From positions 1 to 64,000 of the forward strand of contig NZ_BCSG01000019.1 in assembly GCF_001570745.1 (NCBI RefSeq): a stretch of DNA of 64,000 nt. The letters run 5' to 3'. This DNA is from Alicyclobacillus mali NBRC 102425. Its GTDB lineage: Bacteria > Bacillota > Bacilli > Alicyclobacillales > Alicyclobacillaceae. A program made the position numbers and the translations under genes. Position 1 is the first letter of the stretch. The number at the start of each line of letters is the position of its first letter. The notes below the pieces were generated by a model. It saw nothing but the letters and a program-made list of their open reading frames with translations. It did no database searches and was not told where the DNA came from. Positions 3,909-46,357 of this stretch are shown here, piece by piece.

Positions 3909-4127
3909 TTCTTCATGATCTCAAGAGCCTCAGTTTTCGGCGCCCTGACGGCGCCACTCGGCAGATCCAGGACCATCCTTTGACTCTTGCCGCAAGTGTT
4001 CCTCTGGGTAATGGCTTGACCCAGGGCGTTTCCACCCGTTCCTGTTTCCCTCCGCCCGATCCATCATTCGTGTAATGAATGAGCTTGCGCTTCCTGTTAC
4101 GCTTTCAGTGCACCACTCACACCAAGA

Positions 4128-4252
4128 TTACGCCGAATCCTGCGGAACGCAGGTACGGGGGACAAGCGGGCTCAAGGCCCAGGGGTGAATTGCGCCATTG
4201 GCGCATAGGGGGACTCTTCCATCCGAACCCGTCAACTAACCTCGGAGGCTAC
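4128..4252 (+). promoter_or_regulatory. c-di-AMP riboswitch (ydaO/yuaA leader)
   Basis: The stretch just before the NlpC/P60 gene carries conserved ydaO-yuaA blocks in order: CGCCGAATCCTG, GGTACGGGGGAC, GGGGTGAATTG, ACTCTTCCATCCGAACCCGTC, then AACCTCGGAGGC. This class binds cyclic di-AMP and usually switches off cell-wall hydrolase, osmolyte and K+ transport genes when the ligand is high. Here it ends just before the AGGAGGAG ribosome site of the next gene, so it may act on transcription or on ribosome access. Confidence 0.9.
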
Positions 4253-4264
4253 AGGAGGAGAAGC

Positions 4265-4807
4265 ATGCTGCCGAAACGAACGTCCGTTGGAGCGATTGCC
4301 GCCACCGCGGCCACCCTTGCTACGCTGACGTTGGGAAGTTGCACCGCCTTTGCGCAATCTGCGCTGCCCCCAGGGGTTCATCTCGATCCGTCCATCCAAC
4401 CCCTCGCCTCGGAAAACGCGTCGTATCAACAGAAGACCCAGGCGGTTCTGGAAGTGGCCGAAAGCAAAATCGGCACGCCGTACATCTGGGGGCACAACGA
4501 AGACCGTGGGCAGTACGGATTCGACTGCTCGAACTTCGTGGAGTATGTGTATCACCATGCCCTTGGATATCGCTTCACGACATCGTCTCGCCTCCAGTAC
4601 TACGACGTGGGCTGGCGAGTGCCGTACAGCGACCTGAAGCCTGGCGACCTGCTCATCTTCAACGACGGCGGGCATGTCGGAATTTACGCTGGCAACGGAG
4701 AAATGATTCAATGCGGCGGCGGGCTCGGACGCGTCGGCTTCCTCAGCGTTCGGCCGGGATCGTACTGGTATCGGCACCTGTCGGCTGTTCGACAAATGTA
4801 TACCTGA
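4265..4807 (+). CDS. Secreted NlpC/P60 cell-wall hydrolase
   Basis: This is probably a peptidoglycan peptidase (gamma-glutamyl-diamino acid endopeptidase type) acting outside the cell. A signal peptide spans about residues 1-33, ending AFAQS. The NlpC/P60 domain fills residues about 55-175, with the catalytic Cys in FDCSNFVEYVY and His in GGHVGIYAGNG; the third polar residue is probably in the following IQCGGG stretch. There is no separate binding domain. The start has AGGAGGAG 5 bases upstream, directly after the c-di-AMP riboswitch, so expression should respond to c-di-AMP. Confidence 0.92.
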   Translation: MLPKRTSVGAIAATAATLATLTLGSCTAFAQSALPPGVHLDPSIQPLASENASYQQKTQAVLEVAESKIGTPYIWGHNEDRGQYGFDCSNFVEYVYHHALGYRFTTSSRLQYYDVGWRVPYSDLKPGDLLIFNDGGHVGIYAGNGEMIQCGGGLGRVGFLSVRPGSYWYRHLSAVRQMYT

Positions 4808-41509: not shown

Positions 41510-42714
41510 CGCGCCATCTCGGCGAGAACCAGCGCCAGGCGTCGTTCGCGAAAATCCGCCGCCATGCCCCGCTGCAACTTCGGCCACCTCGCCATCCACG
41601 CATCCCACGCGTTCAACCGCTCGAGCCGGTTCGCCGAATCCCGCGCCTCGAGGGCGTCGAGCGCCTTCCCTTGCGCCAACAGACCCATCTGCACCGGGCG
41701 AAGCTCCGCCACCTCGGTCGCGCATAATTCGACGCCCCAAATCCGCCGCGCCCGATGGATCTCTTCCGGCCACGCCATCTGGGCCCATAAGGCGTCCGGC
41801 TGAGGAGAGGGCTTCGCAATCCGCTTTTCCCATCGAATCTCGCGCGCGTCGGTCCACAAAGCGATGGACAGGGTTTGAACGGCCAGCCCCAATCGCACGA
41901 GGCGGCTACAAAGGCTTTCCATACATAGGCGAACTTGCATCTTCGCCTGTTCGAGCGGCACGCCTTCCGCGTCTCCGCGCCACGAGGCGCTCCACGCCTC
42001 AGGCGGGCGATCCTGCCGAAGCCCTCTGTTCTCCGTACCCTTCATCTGCCAGATCCGCGCCTGCTCTCCAAAGCGGGCATACAACATGTCCTCCGGGATC
42101 TCCGCCAGATCTTTCAGTCGGAAGACGCCCAGGGAGAGAAGCTCGGCCTTGGCATCGTCGGGAATCCACCACGACGCCGCGATGGGCGCGCGCATCCAGA
42201 CGGCTTCATCCTCCCTGCTCAGCAGATCCGGCGCCACCACCAGCGGCTCGGTCCCCAGTTTTCGGTACAGCGCCCCCGGCACCCGCTCCTGTCGGCTCCA
42301 CGCGAGGAGCATACGAGCCTGCCACGGCGTCTTGGCCAGCGCGAGCACCACCCGCTGTTCCTCCGTCAATCCCAGACGGATGTCGCGCGCCATCTGCCGC
42401 AGTTCCGCGAGAGGGACGCGCGGTCCGGAGAGCTCGATCCAAAACCGCCGCTCATCCGGGTGCGTTTCGACCCACGGCGTGTGCGACCACAGCACTTGGC
42501 GCAAATGCCTCCAGGGTGTCGATTCGCCTGCAGCCGACTCCACGCGACAGCCCGGGACGAGCGCCAGAGCTTCCCGTACCGGCATTCCCAGCCGCACCCC
42601 TGCCCGCGCAGCGGTGCGAGAGGCATCGATGATCCTGCCATCTTCTTCGACCAAAAACGGACCTTGGCCCTCGCCCAGCAGCCCTTCGCATTCGCCGTAC
42701 AGACTGTACCGCAT
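41506..42714 (-). CDS. imuB: ImuB-like inactive Y-family DNA polymerase
   Basis: ImuB proteins bind the sliding clamp and link it to DnaE2. The 402 residues show the Y-family palm/finger pattern IIDASRTAARAGVRLGMPVREA (broken at residue ~45 by no gap), VVLALAKTPWQARM and the helical LGVFRLKDLAEIPEDML. The catalytic acidic residues are absent: the N-terminal D-x-x-x-F-F is LYGECEGLL and the S-x-D-E block is WIELSG, so it should not polymerise. ATG 42714 sits 5 bases after GGTGGTGA; GTG 42726 is an alternative. Two LexA boxes lie in its promoter. Confidence 0.82.
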   Translation of the reverse strand: MRYSLYGECEGLLGEGQGPFLVEEDGRIIDASRTAARAGVRLGMPVREALALVPGCRVESAAGESTPWRHLRQVLWSHTPWVETHPDERRFWIELSGPRVPLAELRQMARDIRLGLTEEQRVVLALAKTPWQARMLLAWSRQERVPGALYRKLGTEPLVVAPDLLSREDEAVWMRAPIAASWWIPDDAKAELLSLGVFRLKDLAEIPEDMLYARFGEQARIWQMKGTENRGLRQDRPPEAWSASWRGDAEGVPLEQAKMQVRLCMESLCSRLVRLGLAVQTLSIALWTDAREIRWEKRIAKPSPQPDALWAQMAWPEEIHRARRIWGVELCATEVAELRPVQMGLLAQGKALDALEARDSANRLERLNAWDAWMARWPKLQRGMAADFRERRLALVLAEMAR

Positions 42715-42726
42715 CCGACTCACCAC

Positions 42727-42740
42727 CGAACAAATGTTCT
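42727..42740 (-). promoter_or_regulatory. LexA (DinR) box 2, downstream of the imuB transcription start
   Basis: CGAACAAATGTTCT on the plus strand matches the Gram-positive SOS box CGAAC-N4-GTTCG at all positions except the last base. It lies between the -10 element and the imuB start, where bound LexA would block early elongation. Confidence 0.88.
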
Positions 42741-42748
42741 ACACCTTC

Positions 42749-42777
42749 ATTATACCCTCGCGCACACAAAAAGCAAA
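42749..42777 (-). promoter_or_regulatory. Promoter of the imuB-DUF6504-dnaE2 operon
   Basis: The minus strand has a consensus TATAAT (42749-42754) and a weak -35 TTTGCT (42772-42777) with a 17-base spacer. The -35 overlaps LexA box 1. A start about 7 bases after the -10 would fall at the edge of box 2. Confidence 0.75.
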
Positions 42778-42787
42778 CATATGTTCG
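42774..42787 (-). promoter_or_regulatory. LexA (DinR) box 1, over the -35 of the imuB promoter
   Basis: CAAACATATGTTCG matches the CGAAC-N4-GTTCG palindrome with one change, and has the AT-rich alternating centre favoured in strong Bacillus sites. Its position over the -35 would exclude RNA polymerase. Confidence 0.9.
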
Positions 42788-42815
42788 CATCTTTGACCAA
42801 AAGAAAAGATCCGCC

Positions 42816-43475
42816 TCACGGGCGAATCTCAGGCCTCACGATGGGCCGCATCCTCCCCAACGGCCGAACCGGCGCATCTTTGCGCCACTCTTCGAGACTC
42901 CAATCCCCAGGCACATCGGTGCGCCCTGACGCCCCCGCGGCACTCGCGAGCGCGGCCGTCTCCTCCTGGACGAGATCGAGCAACTGGTCCACTTCGATCC
43001 CGACCAGCCGAAACGCCGCAAGCGGGTTTGTGTCCGCTTCCCAGATGAACGCGAGGAGCACCGCCACGACGTGCGGACAAAGTGGATCCATCTCCTCGCA
43101 GGTGCAGGTGGACAGCGCGCGCAGCCGAGCCGCCGTCTCGCCCGTCGGCACCACCTCCACCTGATGCGCGGACAGAAAATCCAGGAACGACTCGTCCCAC
43201 TCCCCTGCGTAATGCGCCGCGAGCCAATCGGGGCGCATCGCGAGCCAGCGCGCCACGTCTCGCGCGTGCCCCGCGTAATCCGCGAGCTTGGGCAGCCACA
43301 CGTCGAAGGCGCGGCGCGTGCCGCTCCGCTCCACCACCGCCCGCCAGCCAGCGCCGTCCCACGCTCTCGAGCGCACCGCTCCCGACATCGCCAGGCGCGT
43401 GGCGGCGCGAAGGTGAGACGGATCCACCTCGGCCAGCACGGGCTCCCAGCGCGACGCGTACGGACCGCGCTTCAC
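42816..43475 (-). CDS. SWIM zinc-finger protein
   Basis: The 219-residue product carries a SWIM finger at about 123-136: CTCEEMDPLCPH, giving CxC-x6-CxH. The N-terminal WEPVLAEVDPSHLRAATRLA and the segment after the finger (HVVAVLLAFIWEADTNPLAAF) match proteins paired with SNF2 helicases. It probably binds DNA or protein beside the helicase. Its ATG overlaps the SNF2 stop by 4 bases. The gene ends 29 bases before LexA box 1, so it is not itself under those boxes. Confidence 0.86.
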   Translation of the reverse strand: MKRGPYASRWEPVLAEVDPSHLRAATRLAMSGAVRSRAWDGAGWRAVVERSGTRRAFDVWLPKLADYAGHARDVARWLAMRPDWLAAHYAGEWDESFLDFLSAHQVEVVPTGETAARLRALSTCTCEEMDPLCPHVVAVLLAFIWEADTNPLAAFRLVGIEVDQLLDLVQEETAALASAAGASGRTDVPGDWSLEEWRKDAPVRPLGRMRPIVRPEIRP

Positions 43476-46321
43476 GGCTCATCCTCCTCCATCACGCCGA
43501 CCGGGTTCAACGCAAACAACTGATACAGCGCCTCGTCGTCGAGTTCCGTCACCCAGTCCTCCGACACGCGGCTCACCACGTCGGACAGCGCCCGCTTCGC
43601 CCGCAGCATCTCGTCAATTCGCTCCTCCAGCGTGCCGGCGCAGATCATCTTGTGCACCTCCACGCCCCGCGACTGGCCGATCCGATACGCGCGGTCCGTC
43701 GCCTGATCTTCCACCGCCGGATTCCACCATCGATCGTAGTGAAACACGTGATTCGCCCGCGTCAGATTCAGCCCCACGCCACCCGCTCGCAGCGACAGGA
43801 CGAGCACGGGCGACGCTACTCGCTTGGCCTGATACCGCTCGACGATCTCGCCCCGAGCCTTGGCGGACATGCCGCCGTGCAGGAAAGGCGGCCGAAATCC
43901 GAGCTCACCCTCCACCGCTGCGCACAACATCTCGCCCATCTCTCGAAACTGCGTGAAGATAAGCGCGGCCTCCCCGCCGTCCACGACCACGCGCAGGAGA
44001 TCCAACAGGCTCCGCAGTTTCCCACTCCGCTTGGCAGATGGCCGCCCGCCCGAGATGAGCGCCGGGTGATCGCACACCTGCTTGAGCCGGAGCAACGTGG
44101 TCAGAATCGCGCCTCTTCGCGCGATGCCGCTCGGACCGCACGCGATCTGCGCGAACATCTGATCCACCAATGCCTGATACATCGCGGCCTGCTCGGCCGT
44201 CAGGAGCGCGCGTTCCTCCACTTCCCACTTCTCCGGGAGCTCCGGCGCAATCGCCGGATCGCTCTTTCGGCGGCGCAGAAGCACCGGACGAAGCAGCAGC
44301 TGCAACTGGCGCATGCGCACGCCGCTCAAATCCCGCCCTTCTGCGATGGAACCGAATGTCGTCCGAAACCAGCGCAGCGATCCGAGGTAGCCAGGGTTCA
44401 AAAAATCCATGAGCGACCACAGCTCATCGAGCCGATTTTCCACAGGCGTGCCCGTGAGCGCGACGCGGTGACGGCTCGTCAACGCCCGAAGCGCTCGCGC
44501 TTGCTGCGTCGAGGCATTTTTCACCACCTGCGCCTCGTCGATGGCGACGCAGTCGAACGCCCGCTGGCGGAACGCCTCGCCGTCTCGAAGCAGCGTCCCG
44601 TACGTGGTGATGACGAGATCGACAGGGGGCGCGAAGGCCCTGTCGAGATTGCGGGCGGACCCATGATGCACGTACACCGAAAGATCGGGGGCAAACCGCT
44701 CGATCTCGGCCTTCCAATTCGCGACCAGCGAAGTCGGACAGACGAGGAGATGGGGTCCCGACGCCTCGCCCCGCTCTTTGACCCGAAGCCAGTACGCGAT
44801 CATCTGCACCGTCTTGCCGAGCCCCATGTCGTCCGCCAGGCAACCGCCGATTCCAAGCTTTCTCAACTGGATGAGCCACGCGTACCCTCGCTCCTGGTAG
44901 TGCCGCAGGGTGCCTCGAAACGAAGCTGGCGGCGGCTCCGGCTCCGCGTCTCGGCCGAGCGCCCACACGTCCACCCAGTTCGCGGCGCGTGGCGCCTCTG
45001 CGTCCACCTCCATCTTCCCCGGCCCGTCGTGCGCAGCGAGGGCATGCGCGCGCATCCACTCGAGGGGACTGACCTCCTGGCCGCGCTCAGGCAGCGCCTC
45101 GACCTGGCGCAGCAGATCGGCCAGCGGCACGAGGCGCCAGACGCCGTCCACCTGCACGAGTGGCGTTTGCCGTTCCACCATCCTTCGAAACTCCTCGGGC
45201 GTGAGCGTGTGATCGTCGATCACGACGGACCAATCAAACCGCGCGACCGCATCCGCGGAAAACCTCGGCATCCCCGCCGCTCTTCGTCCGCCTCCGCGGC
45301 GGAAAGCGCCGCCGTCCATACGCTCCAGTCGAACGCGAATCCGAATGTCCCGCGCCTCCTCGAGCGCCGTCGTCTCCACGACGAACGATGCGCGGCGAAG
45401 TTCGGGAAGTTCGTGGTACAAAAACCGAACCATCTCATCCGGATGGAGGACGGCCCGTGCGGGTGCAGGGGCGCGCAGAGCGCTCGCAATGGCGGGACAC
45501 AGCCGCGCCGCCTCACGCAGTTTCGGCAGAAACCAGCGCTCCGGCGCCACCAGCACATCCCCGTTGGCGGCCATTTCCCGGGAAGGGGACTGCCAGTACG
45601 CCGAAAGCGGAATTCGCTCGCCAGTCCACCGGTGGCGAAGTTCAAAGCGGAGTGCCCACTCCCCACCGAGATTCTCACCCGGCGGCTCGAGCGAAAAGGC
45701 GAGATCGTACGCGATCCGCCCGCTGTCGTCGTCGAAATCCGGGCGGCTCCAACCGGACCCCTCGAGGGACCGCGCGCACTCTCTGCTGACGATCCAGCCA
45801 TCCGCCAGAAAACGCGGCGACCCCACGAGCGCCCGCGCCCAAGCGGCGAGCGCTTCCTTCTCCCCGCGGTACATCACGCTGTATCCGTTCCCGGACGGCG
45901 TGCGCAGTTCCACGTCCACAACGCGCCGCCTCAGCTCGCGGTCCACGAGTTGGATCAACAGTGCGTCCACGGCTGCCGCGGACGAATAGACCTTGGCCAG
46001 GGCGCCGCGCGTGGCACAGGAGACGAGGCGATAGCGGAACGCCAAGAGCGCATCCGATGTCCACGCGGGAGCCCAGCGCGCCAGAAAGCTGGCTTCGCCT
46101 GAGGGGAAGCCCTGTGCCCTTCCCTGCGCCATCTGGCGAAGCCACAGCGCGACCTCCCGCTGCTCCATCCGCTCCCCATGCGCCACGGCCACCACGTCGC
46201 CATGGTCCACAATTTTTTGGGCGAGATCGAGCGCCAGCGCCTGCCAGGTACGCAGGGCGTCCGCCAGGCCAAGTTCTTCCACCACGCTCCGACCAATCCG
46301 CTCCGGCGCAGTCCGGTCCAT
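43472..46321 (-). CDS. SNF2-family DNA translocase/helicase
   Basis: The 949-residue protein has a long N-terminal half (about 1-470, SNF2-associated regions) and a SNF2/Rad54-type motor. Motif I is DDMGLGKTVQM (about 497-507), II is the DEAQ variant (about 593), III is VALTGTPVENRLDELWS, V is LSLRAGGVGLNLTRA and VI is DRAYRIGQSRGV. ATP-driven translocation on double-stranded DNA is expected, in repair or restart. ATG 46321 has GGGGGCG in front. It is coupled to the SWIM gene. Confidence 0.9.
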   Translation of the reverse strand: MDRTAPERIGRSVVEELGLADALRTWQALALDLAQKIVDHGDVVAVAHGERMEQREVALWLRQMAQGRAQGFPSGEASFLARWAPAWTSDALLAFRYRLVSCATRGALAKVYSSAAAVDALLIQLVDRELRRRVVDVELRTPSGNGYSVMYRGEKEALAAWARALVGSPRFLADGWIVSRECARSLEGSGWSRPDFDDDSGRIAYDLAFSLEPPGENLGGEWALRFELRHRWTGERIPLSAYWQSPSREMAANGDVLVAPERWFLPKLREAARLCPAIASALRAPAPARAVLHPDEMVRFLYHELPELRRASFVVETTALEEARDIRIRVRLERMDGGAFRRGGGRRAAGMPRFSADAVARFDWSVVIDDHTLTPEEFRRMVERQTPLVQVDGVWRLVPLADLLRQVEALPERGQEVSPLEWMRAHALAAHDGPGKMEVDAEAPRAANWVDVWALGRDAEPEPPPASFRGTLRHYQERGYAWLIQLRKLGIGGCLADDMGLGKTVQMIAYWLRVKERGEASGPHLLVCPTSLVANWKAEIERFAPDLSVYVHHGSARNLDRAFAPPVDLVITTYGTLLRDGEAFRQRAFDCVAIDEAQVVKNASTQQARALRALTSRHRVALTGTPVENRLDELWSLMDFLNPGYLGSLRWFRTTFGSIAEGRDLSGVRMRQLQLLLRPVLLRRRKSDPAIAPELPEKWEVEERALLTAEQAAMYQALVDQMFAQIACGPSGIARRGAILTTLLRLKQVCDHPALISGGRPSAKRSGKLRSLLDLLRVVVDGGEAALIFTQFREMGEMLCAAVEGELGFRPPFLHGGMSAKARGEIVERYQAKRVASPVLVLSLRAGGVGLNLTRANHVFHYDRWWNPAVEDQATDRAYRIGQSRGVEVHKMICAGTLEERIDEMLRAKRALSDVVSRVSEDWVTELDDEALYQLFALNPVGVMEEDEP

Positions 46322-46357
46322 CCACGCGCCCCCGTTCCTGAAATGTCCTGTCTCTCG

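Follow-up and report, generated by a model that had tools for sequence, protein, structure and literature searches.

In Alicyclobacillus mali NBRC 102425, imuB, a DUF6504 gene and dnaE2 very probably form a LexA-repressed, doubly gated operon for a mutasome without ImuA, an error-prone complex in which RecA would replace ImuA. After DNA damage, this gene set probably copies damaged DNA inaccurately. The operon (Table 1) was read in the window, the whole 64,000-nt stretch of DNA that was analysed; it corresponds to contig C19:1-64000, and the genome measures 2.79 Mb and is split into 85 contigs. An initial annotation had placed two SOS palindromes on both sides of a TATAAT element before imuB-DUF6504-dnaE2, and this arrangement was confirmed, coordinates included, by the sequence and by its conservation in relatives. 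On sequence grounds, it is highly likely that the operon is real, functional-looking and LexA-controlled. The earlier proposal of LexA control is upheld by lexA and recA, which have the same box type, and by the conserved imuB boxes; the classical ImuB/DnaE2 identity proposed with it is not, as the proteins fit an ImuA-less variant with a stand-alone ImuB-C. Mutation under damage, also proposed there, would be expected from the family to which the operon belongs.

Table 1. Features of the imuB operon and its promoter in the window, from upstream to downstream.
Feature	Position	Strand	Remarks
Terminator-like intrinsic hairpin	42806..42830	-	10 pairs, then TTCTTTT; 3' of the SNF2/SWIM genes, just before the imuB promoter
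LexA-type box A, CGAACATATGTTTG	42774..42787	-	read in the sequence, found by pattern scan, kept in relatives; overlaps the -35 candidate
-35 candidate, TTTGCT	42772..42777	-	17-nt spacer to the -10; weak match to TTGACA
-10 element, TATAAT	42749..42754	-	between boxes A and B
LexA-type box B, AGAACATTTGTTCG	42727..42740	-	over the expected transcription start; kept in relatives
Shine-Dalgarno-like, GGTGGTGAG	42719..42727	-	abuts box B
imuB-like gene, 402 aa	41506..42714	-	Y-family protein without catalytic acids (iPolY)
Stand-alone ImuB-C domain (DUF6504), 80 aa	41267..41509	-	TTG start overlaps the imuB stop
dnaE2, 1039 aa	38135..41254	-	cassette-type error-prone Pol III alpha

Boxes A and B are 47 bp apart, start to start; box A ends 19 nt before the -10 element and box B starts 8 nt after it. 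The -35 (TTTGCT) is poor, and a promoter consensus scan of the region upstream of imuB called no promoter. The imuB start is most likely the ATG at 42714, as in relatives, and not the GTG at 42726. In 13 of the 15 rows from the same genus (host included), GGTGGTG stands before this start. The genes are closely packed: the imuB stop is a TGA within the overlap with the DUF6504 start, and dnaE2 begins 12 nt after the end of DUF6504. imuB is the first gene behind the promoter, and the next gene upstream is a SWIM gene beyond the terminator-like hairpin. This hairpin is present in the MFE fold, but its z is only -1.56 and 12 of 200 shuffles fold equally well, which is not significant. The upstream genes, in window positions 42816-46351 (-), encode a SWIM-domain protein (Pfam score just below cut-off) and a SNF2-type helicase; a SWIM match occurs in 25 of the 33 fetched stretches, not always adjoining imuB, and the pair may be linked to DNA repair. 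The SNF2 protein was not accepted as a defence gene, since its PADLOC matches fall on the helicase part.

Single boxes are hardly enriched in the window, where a scan with up to 2 mismatches found 180 matches against 153 expected, a count reached by 4 of 100 shuffles. A pair of boxes 40-55 bp apart, each matching at 9/10 or better, occurs once in the window, against 2 pairs in total over 300 dinucleotide shuffles. Over the genome, the loose pattern CGAACNNNNGTTYG was uninformative (11 and 12 matches, 18 and 16 in the reversed control). The tighter core RAACRTNYGTTY gave 11 and 13 matches against 5 and 3 in the control, with many of these sites still inside reading frames.

The doubt over chance occurrence is removed by the relatives, which keep the two boxes. 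Among 41 genomes of one bacterial family, host included, an ImuB match was found in 33, and one stretch from each of these was analysed. All 33 also gave a DnaE2 match (in pieces in L052), and 32 gave a DUF6504 match (absent in G016). Genome G035 was without an ImuB hit in the genome search, yet it has DnaE2 and a double-box promoter, and profile searches found ImuB and DUF6504 on the same contig (L135); the cassette is carried by 34 of the 41 family genomes. The other seven genomes without an ImuB hit gave no DnaE2-like score, and four of these seven are only 62-85% complete. Two boxes are present in 31 of 33 imuB upstream regions (host included), against none of 990 shuffled upstream regions. 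These regions were anchored at the imuB start by motif, with L048 and L054 set by hand (30 of 33 without the hand anchor of L048). In one exception, L064, box A is at the right place with a 7/10 match. In the other, L056, imuB is preceded by part of an IS1595-type element (assigned by eye), and about 6 kb upstream there is a double-box promoter of the imuB type. This arrangement belongs to genome G030, which is covered by L056 and L224.

The geometry of the paired boxes was compared in 33 pairs, one per stretch and picked by score, the L056 pair belonging to the IS element. TATAAT lies between the boxes in 31 pairs and TATACT in two (L054 and the IS pair in L056). The -10 follows box A after 19-22 nt and precedes box B by 3-14 nt, and the boxes are 42-53 bp apart. 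A fixed helical phasing of the two boxes was rejected, as this spacing varies. The loose spacing favours two independent blocks over one rigid LexA-LexA complex.

The ImuB-like protein is a diverged member of the Y family, with Pfam IMS scores about at cut-off (21.4 and 23.6 bits in two runs; cut-off 23.2). Its AlphaFold model has a Y-family-like fold, a mean pLDDT of 82 and a pTM of 0.57, and the 50 listed Foldseek matches to solved structures are Y-family polymerases by title (best E 8e-18), with a whole-chain TM of only 0.38-0.48 by query length. When 33 ImuB rows were aligned to host DinB, the catalytic Glu of the DE pair was absent in all 33, the Asp column of that pair held D in 10, and the first catalytic Asp faced a gap in 31 and Y or F in two. 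The clamp-binding Gln is kept in all 33 rows, the full QxxLF in one row only (L041). A RecA-NT-like tail motif is clear by eye in several relatives (e.g. VNRKFPDALRMG) and is diverged or weak in the window ImuB (WMARWPKLQRGM).

The DUF6504 protein scored 23.6 bits with its Pfam model (cut-off 24.2), and W38, W44 and W45 are invariant in an alignment of 53 rows. This alignment matched the C-terminal 190 residues of ImuB with an hhalign probability of 91.6% (E 8e-7), whereas 40 column-shuffled control alignments reached at most 5.2% and the first 190 ImuB residues gave 0.0. The ImuB reference consisted of five proteins of classical-type operons, a sixth, from Thermomicrobium, having been omitted as unlike. 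A 32-row DUF6504 alignment gave 75.0% with the C-terminal part of ImuB, and plain HMM searches at E 0.01 linked DUF6504 and classical ImuB in neither direction. The structural model is an all-beta domain (pLDDT 89) with no match among solved structures (best E 0.27), which is also the case for ImuB-C according to a passage by its describers (PMC12926913). In A. pomorum (L050 and L124), no DUF6504 gene lies between imuB and dnaE2, and the complex may work there without ImuB-C.

For DnaE2, the best NCBIfam model is that of error-prone DNA polymerase, at a score below cut-off (879 against 939; next model 854). Its nearest named matches, in the first two rows listed, are from Alicyclobacillus species (95% and 90%). 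The palm aspartates are kept and the PHP ligands partly kept. In a quick tree of 39 rows, midpoint-rooted, the cassette DnaE2 proteins form one clade (SH-aLRT 99) beside six classical-type rows (98), and cassette and classical DnaE2 together are separated from DnaE3 and E. coli DnaE (100); the classical labels in this tree are our own, and no row was labelled DnaE2X by its authors.

The operon contains no imuA gene. The ImuA and RecA models each match one place in the genome, which is RecA itself. In none of the 10 control genomes giving matches (Caulobacter included) did the ImuA model reach its cut-off, which makes this a weak test by which a divergent ImuA could be missed; ImuA is likely to be absent from the genome. 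The genome encodes PolC (C12; named by length and score), another DnaE (C6) and the window DnaE2 (C19), and its Y-family proteins are one typical DinB (C6) and the divergent window ImuB. There is one RecA (C12) and one clear LexA (C32). lexA and recA each have one box of the imuB-operon type upstream, and uvrB, an sbcD-like gene and a SplB-like gene (names by eye) are also preceded by LexA-type boxes. The typical DinB gene has no box within 400 bp upstream.

The following mechanism is proposed. LexA dimers would bind both operators, covering the -35 and the transcription start respectively, and would shut the promoter tightly. Upon DNA damage, RecA filaments would trigger LexA self-cleavage, the LexA pool would fall and both operators would empty, with a tighter or later release than one operator might give. 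Induction would then yield imuB, imuB-C and dnaE2 from one transcript. The dead Y-family ImuB would bind the sliding clamp while its C-terminal tail would bind RecA in ImuA's stead, and ImuB-C would link ImuB to DnaE2. DnaE2 would copy past lesions with low fidelity, and mutagenesis would result.

The two boxes could also be read differently. Box B might be the sole working operator, with box A a relic or only shaping the -35, as Sulfobacillus-type loci with a single box just downstream of the -10 would suggest; box A also ends in TTTG in 31 of the 33 pairs, as expected if it also serves as the -35. This is quite unlikely: all 33 score-picked pairs, that of the IS element in L056 among them, have the outer (left) GAAC half of box A, for which the -35 has no use. 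It is highly improbable that both boxes are bound by a different repressor, for instance by either of the host's two weaker LexA_DNA_bind-like proteins. These two give weak hits with the LexA DNA-binding model, at 24.4 and 20.9 bits against a cut-off of 23.7, but the clear LexA scores 101.8 bits, and the same box type stands before lexA and recA, as an autoregulated LexA would have.

Other readings concern what the cassette does. Under LexA control, its output might be accurate or neutral gap filling and damage tolerance instead of mutagenesis. A passage in the review PMC9578287 credits DnaE2 with filling gaps in Caulobacter cells that do not divide, and the HLHxH and GAE motifs of PHP are kept in the cassette DnaE2 rows, more fully than in classical rows, which makes some nuclease activity possible. 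Host DnaE2 is, however, altered at further PHP places (TDR, DVR), and published passages on Caulobacter and mycobacteria state that dnaE2 deletion reduces damage-induced mutagenesis; an accurate or neutral output is considered unlikely, and DnaE2, with its PHP ligands partly kept, may or may not have lost proofreading. A cassette decaying and silent in the host lineage is scarcely credible. In one relative, A. suci (L052 and L176), dnaE2 is split into several frames, with imuB, DUF6504 and both boxes remaining, but in the window the frames are open and dN/dS in three comparisons points to purifying selection (imuB, 0.215-0.329; DUF6504 gene, 0.199-0.516 from few changes; dnaE2, 0.088-0.094).

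The protein content of the ImuA-less mutasome proposed here is of a known, recently described kind, and the conserved double operator is the new part. An operon for an inactive Y-family polymerase, a stand-alone ImuB-C and DnaE2 is described from Kyrpidia tusciae in part of an earlier study, where RecA was suggested in ImuA's place (Timinskas and Venclovas, 2019; PMC6511836), and DnaE2X systems composed of iPolY, ImuB-C and RecA are named in passages of a 2026 NAR survey (PMC12926913). ImuB-C had been defined by Aravind et al. (2013; excerpt of PMC3765255), and A. acidocaldarius was noted as having dnaE2 (excerpt of PMC3274465). The DnaE2X-iPolY-ImuB-C-RecA systems and the host operon share an inactive Y-family protein, a stand-alone ImuB-C, DnaE2 and, as far as the operon itself goes, the lack of an imuA gene. 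These systems are reported from hosts with PolC too, and the present host has PolC. In the survey passages, DnaE2X is the only DnaE2-based type found alongside all three replication systems (PMC12926913). The describers regard its mutasome as similar to the ancestor of the classical mutasome. The point of difference is that LexA operators and gene order are not given in those passages; the word LexA occurs 0 times in the main text (PMC12926913). The literature searched, with few subscription papers among it, gave no account of LexA operators of the DnaE2X variant. A little-studied DnaE2 mutasome gains a concrete SOS-type promoter, in a genus that is not known to be pathogenic.

The classical ImuA-ImuB-DnaE2 (imuABC) systems are similar in being SOS-controlled and in having a dead Y-family protein with DnaE2 and an ImuB-C domain. 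In contrast, the host operon has no imuA, its ImuB-C is a separate 80-aa gene not fused to ImuB, and its DnaE2 is not part of the clade formed by the six classical-type rows. The putative Gram-positive mutasome YqjW/UvrX-YqjX/YolD-RecA likewise involves a polymerase operon with a small partner gene, and YqjW/UvrX look-alikes in relatives share the imuB-type double-box promoter. It differs in its active Y-family polymerase and lack of DnaE2, and it is absent from the window. Several LexA boxes at one promoter are known from E. coli lexA, recN and colicin genes. Such multi-box SOS promoters also have more than one LexA operator, whereas here the operators lie over the -35 and over the start and are family-wide. 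The small subunits of YqjW/UvrX systems vary, according to a passage of the survey (PMC12926913). According to parts of PMC12700426, a single LexA box is present at about 97% of the SOS promoters of Caulobacter, imuABC is an early-induced operon, and induction timing is not explained by LexA-box features; the early imuABC and a timing independent of box features argue against a simple late-gene reading of the double box.

Double boxes were compared across genes. recA has one box in all 30 upstream regions examined, which come from 30 of the 41 genomes that gave a match. For uvrB, 30 of 40 genomes were covered in the same way, with one box in 27 and two in 3. lexA has one box in the host, and three and four in two other genomes examined. 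The idea that double boxes mark the imuB operon alone was rejected by a pair search over the 41 genomes. Further pairs were found at lexA of some species, at uvrB in three, at an IS1595-type element, at small-protein/polymerase operons and at another gene (L217); some pairs look like chance, including one in the host (C8:60244). When ten further promoters of the same geometry were read, eight led to a Y-family polymerase with a DMQSFYAS motif, and seven of these eight polymerases sit behind a listed gene of 83-97 aa. The remaining two are L225, which shows only the small gene, and L217, which leads to another gene. Double operators are thus the rule at two kinds of polymerase operon, yet other genes have them too.

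Behind these double-box promoters, the small gene and the polymerase occur in L215 and L218-L223, the polymerase is listed in L226, and the small gene is listed in L216 and L225. Two of the 83-97 aa proteins were tested and had no Pfam match; this protein is perhaps a new small subunit of YqjX/YolD type. An IS1595-type transposase gene (by eye) with its own LexA-like box pair was seen in L227 and L229 (G015 and G021), and a box pair is also present in L228 (G017).

A wider search gave 61 loci, 30 of which lay outside the family stretches, had enough upstream DNA and were scored by eye. This set omits L131 and anchorless loci, and the imuB start is only estimated in five; several of the 30 are near copies, so the counts are not independent, and L126 and L127 are among the family rows in the tree. 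Two boxes were found at 12 loci, one at 13 and none at 5. Four of the two-box loci have the host geometry (L126, L127, L132 and L172, titled Thermaerobacter). The other eight (L139, L140, L141, L143, L145, L147, L149 and L173) have a spacing of 28-32 bp, and their first box sits between TTGAC(T/C) and TATAAT. The one-box loci are L142, which also has a worn first box, L146, L154, L155, L157-L159, L161, L163, L165, L168, L170 and L174; in L155 and in three loci titled Sulfobacillus (L159, L163 and L168), the single box follows shortly after the -10. No box was counted in L153, L156, L164, L160 and L166, the last two holding only a chance-like site. Thus, with 13 one-box and 5 no-box loci among the 30, the cassette can do without the second operator. 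Because eight loci place the first box between the -35 and -10, the addition of a second operator probably happened more than once; the downstream box would be the older operator, with the second added at two different places.

A broader reading is possible but doubtful, namely that the double LexA operator in these Bacillota is a lock chiefly on mutagenic polymerases (iPolY-ImuB-C-DnaE2 and small-protein/Y-polymerase) while recA stays single, that the second operator was added at least twice (over the -35 and between the -35 and -10), and that mutagenesis has a higher damage threshold than repair. With one box at recA and two at imuB, a single genome provides a natural setting in which to ask whether the number of operators determines when error-prone copying is allowed.

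A few other sites were recorded in the host. In L072 and L088 (host C4 and C36), single LexA-type boxes precede a SplB-like gene of the radical SAM type and an sbcD-like gene for a nuclease (both named by eye). The genome's only CGAACATATGTTCG is in L077 (host C17:77396-77409), 133 bp before a flavoprotein-like gene (by eye). The window also carries a c-di-AMP riboswitch (RF00379) at 4121-4265 (+), with a score of 73.8 bits.
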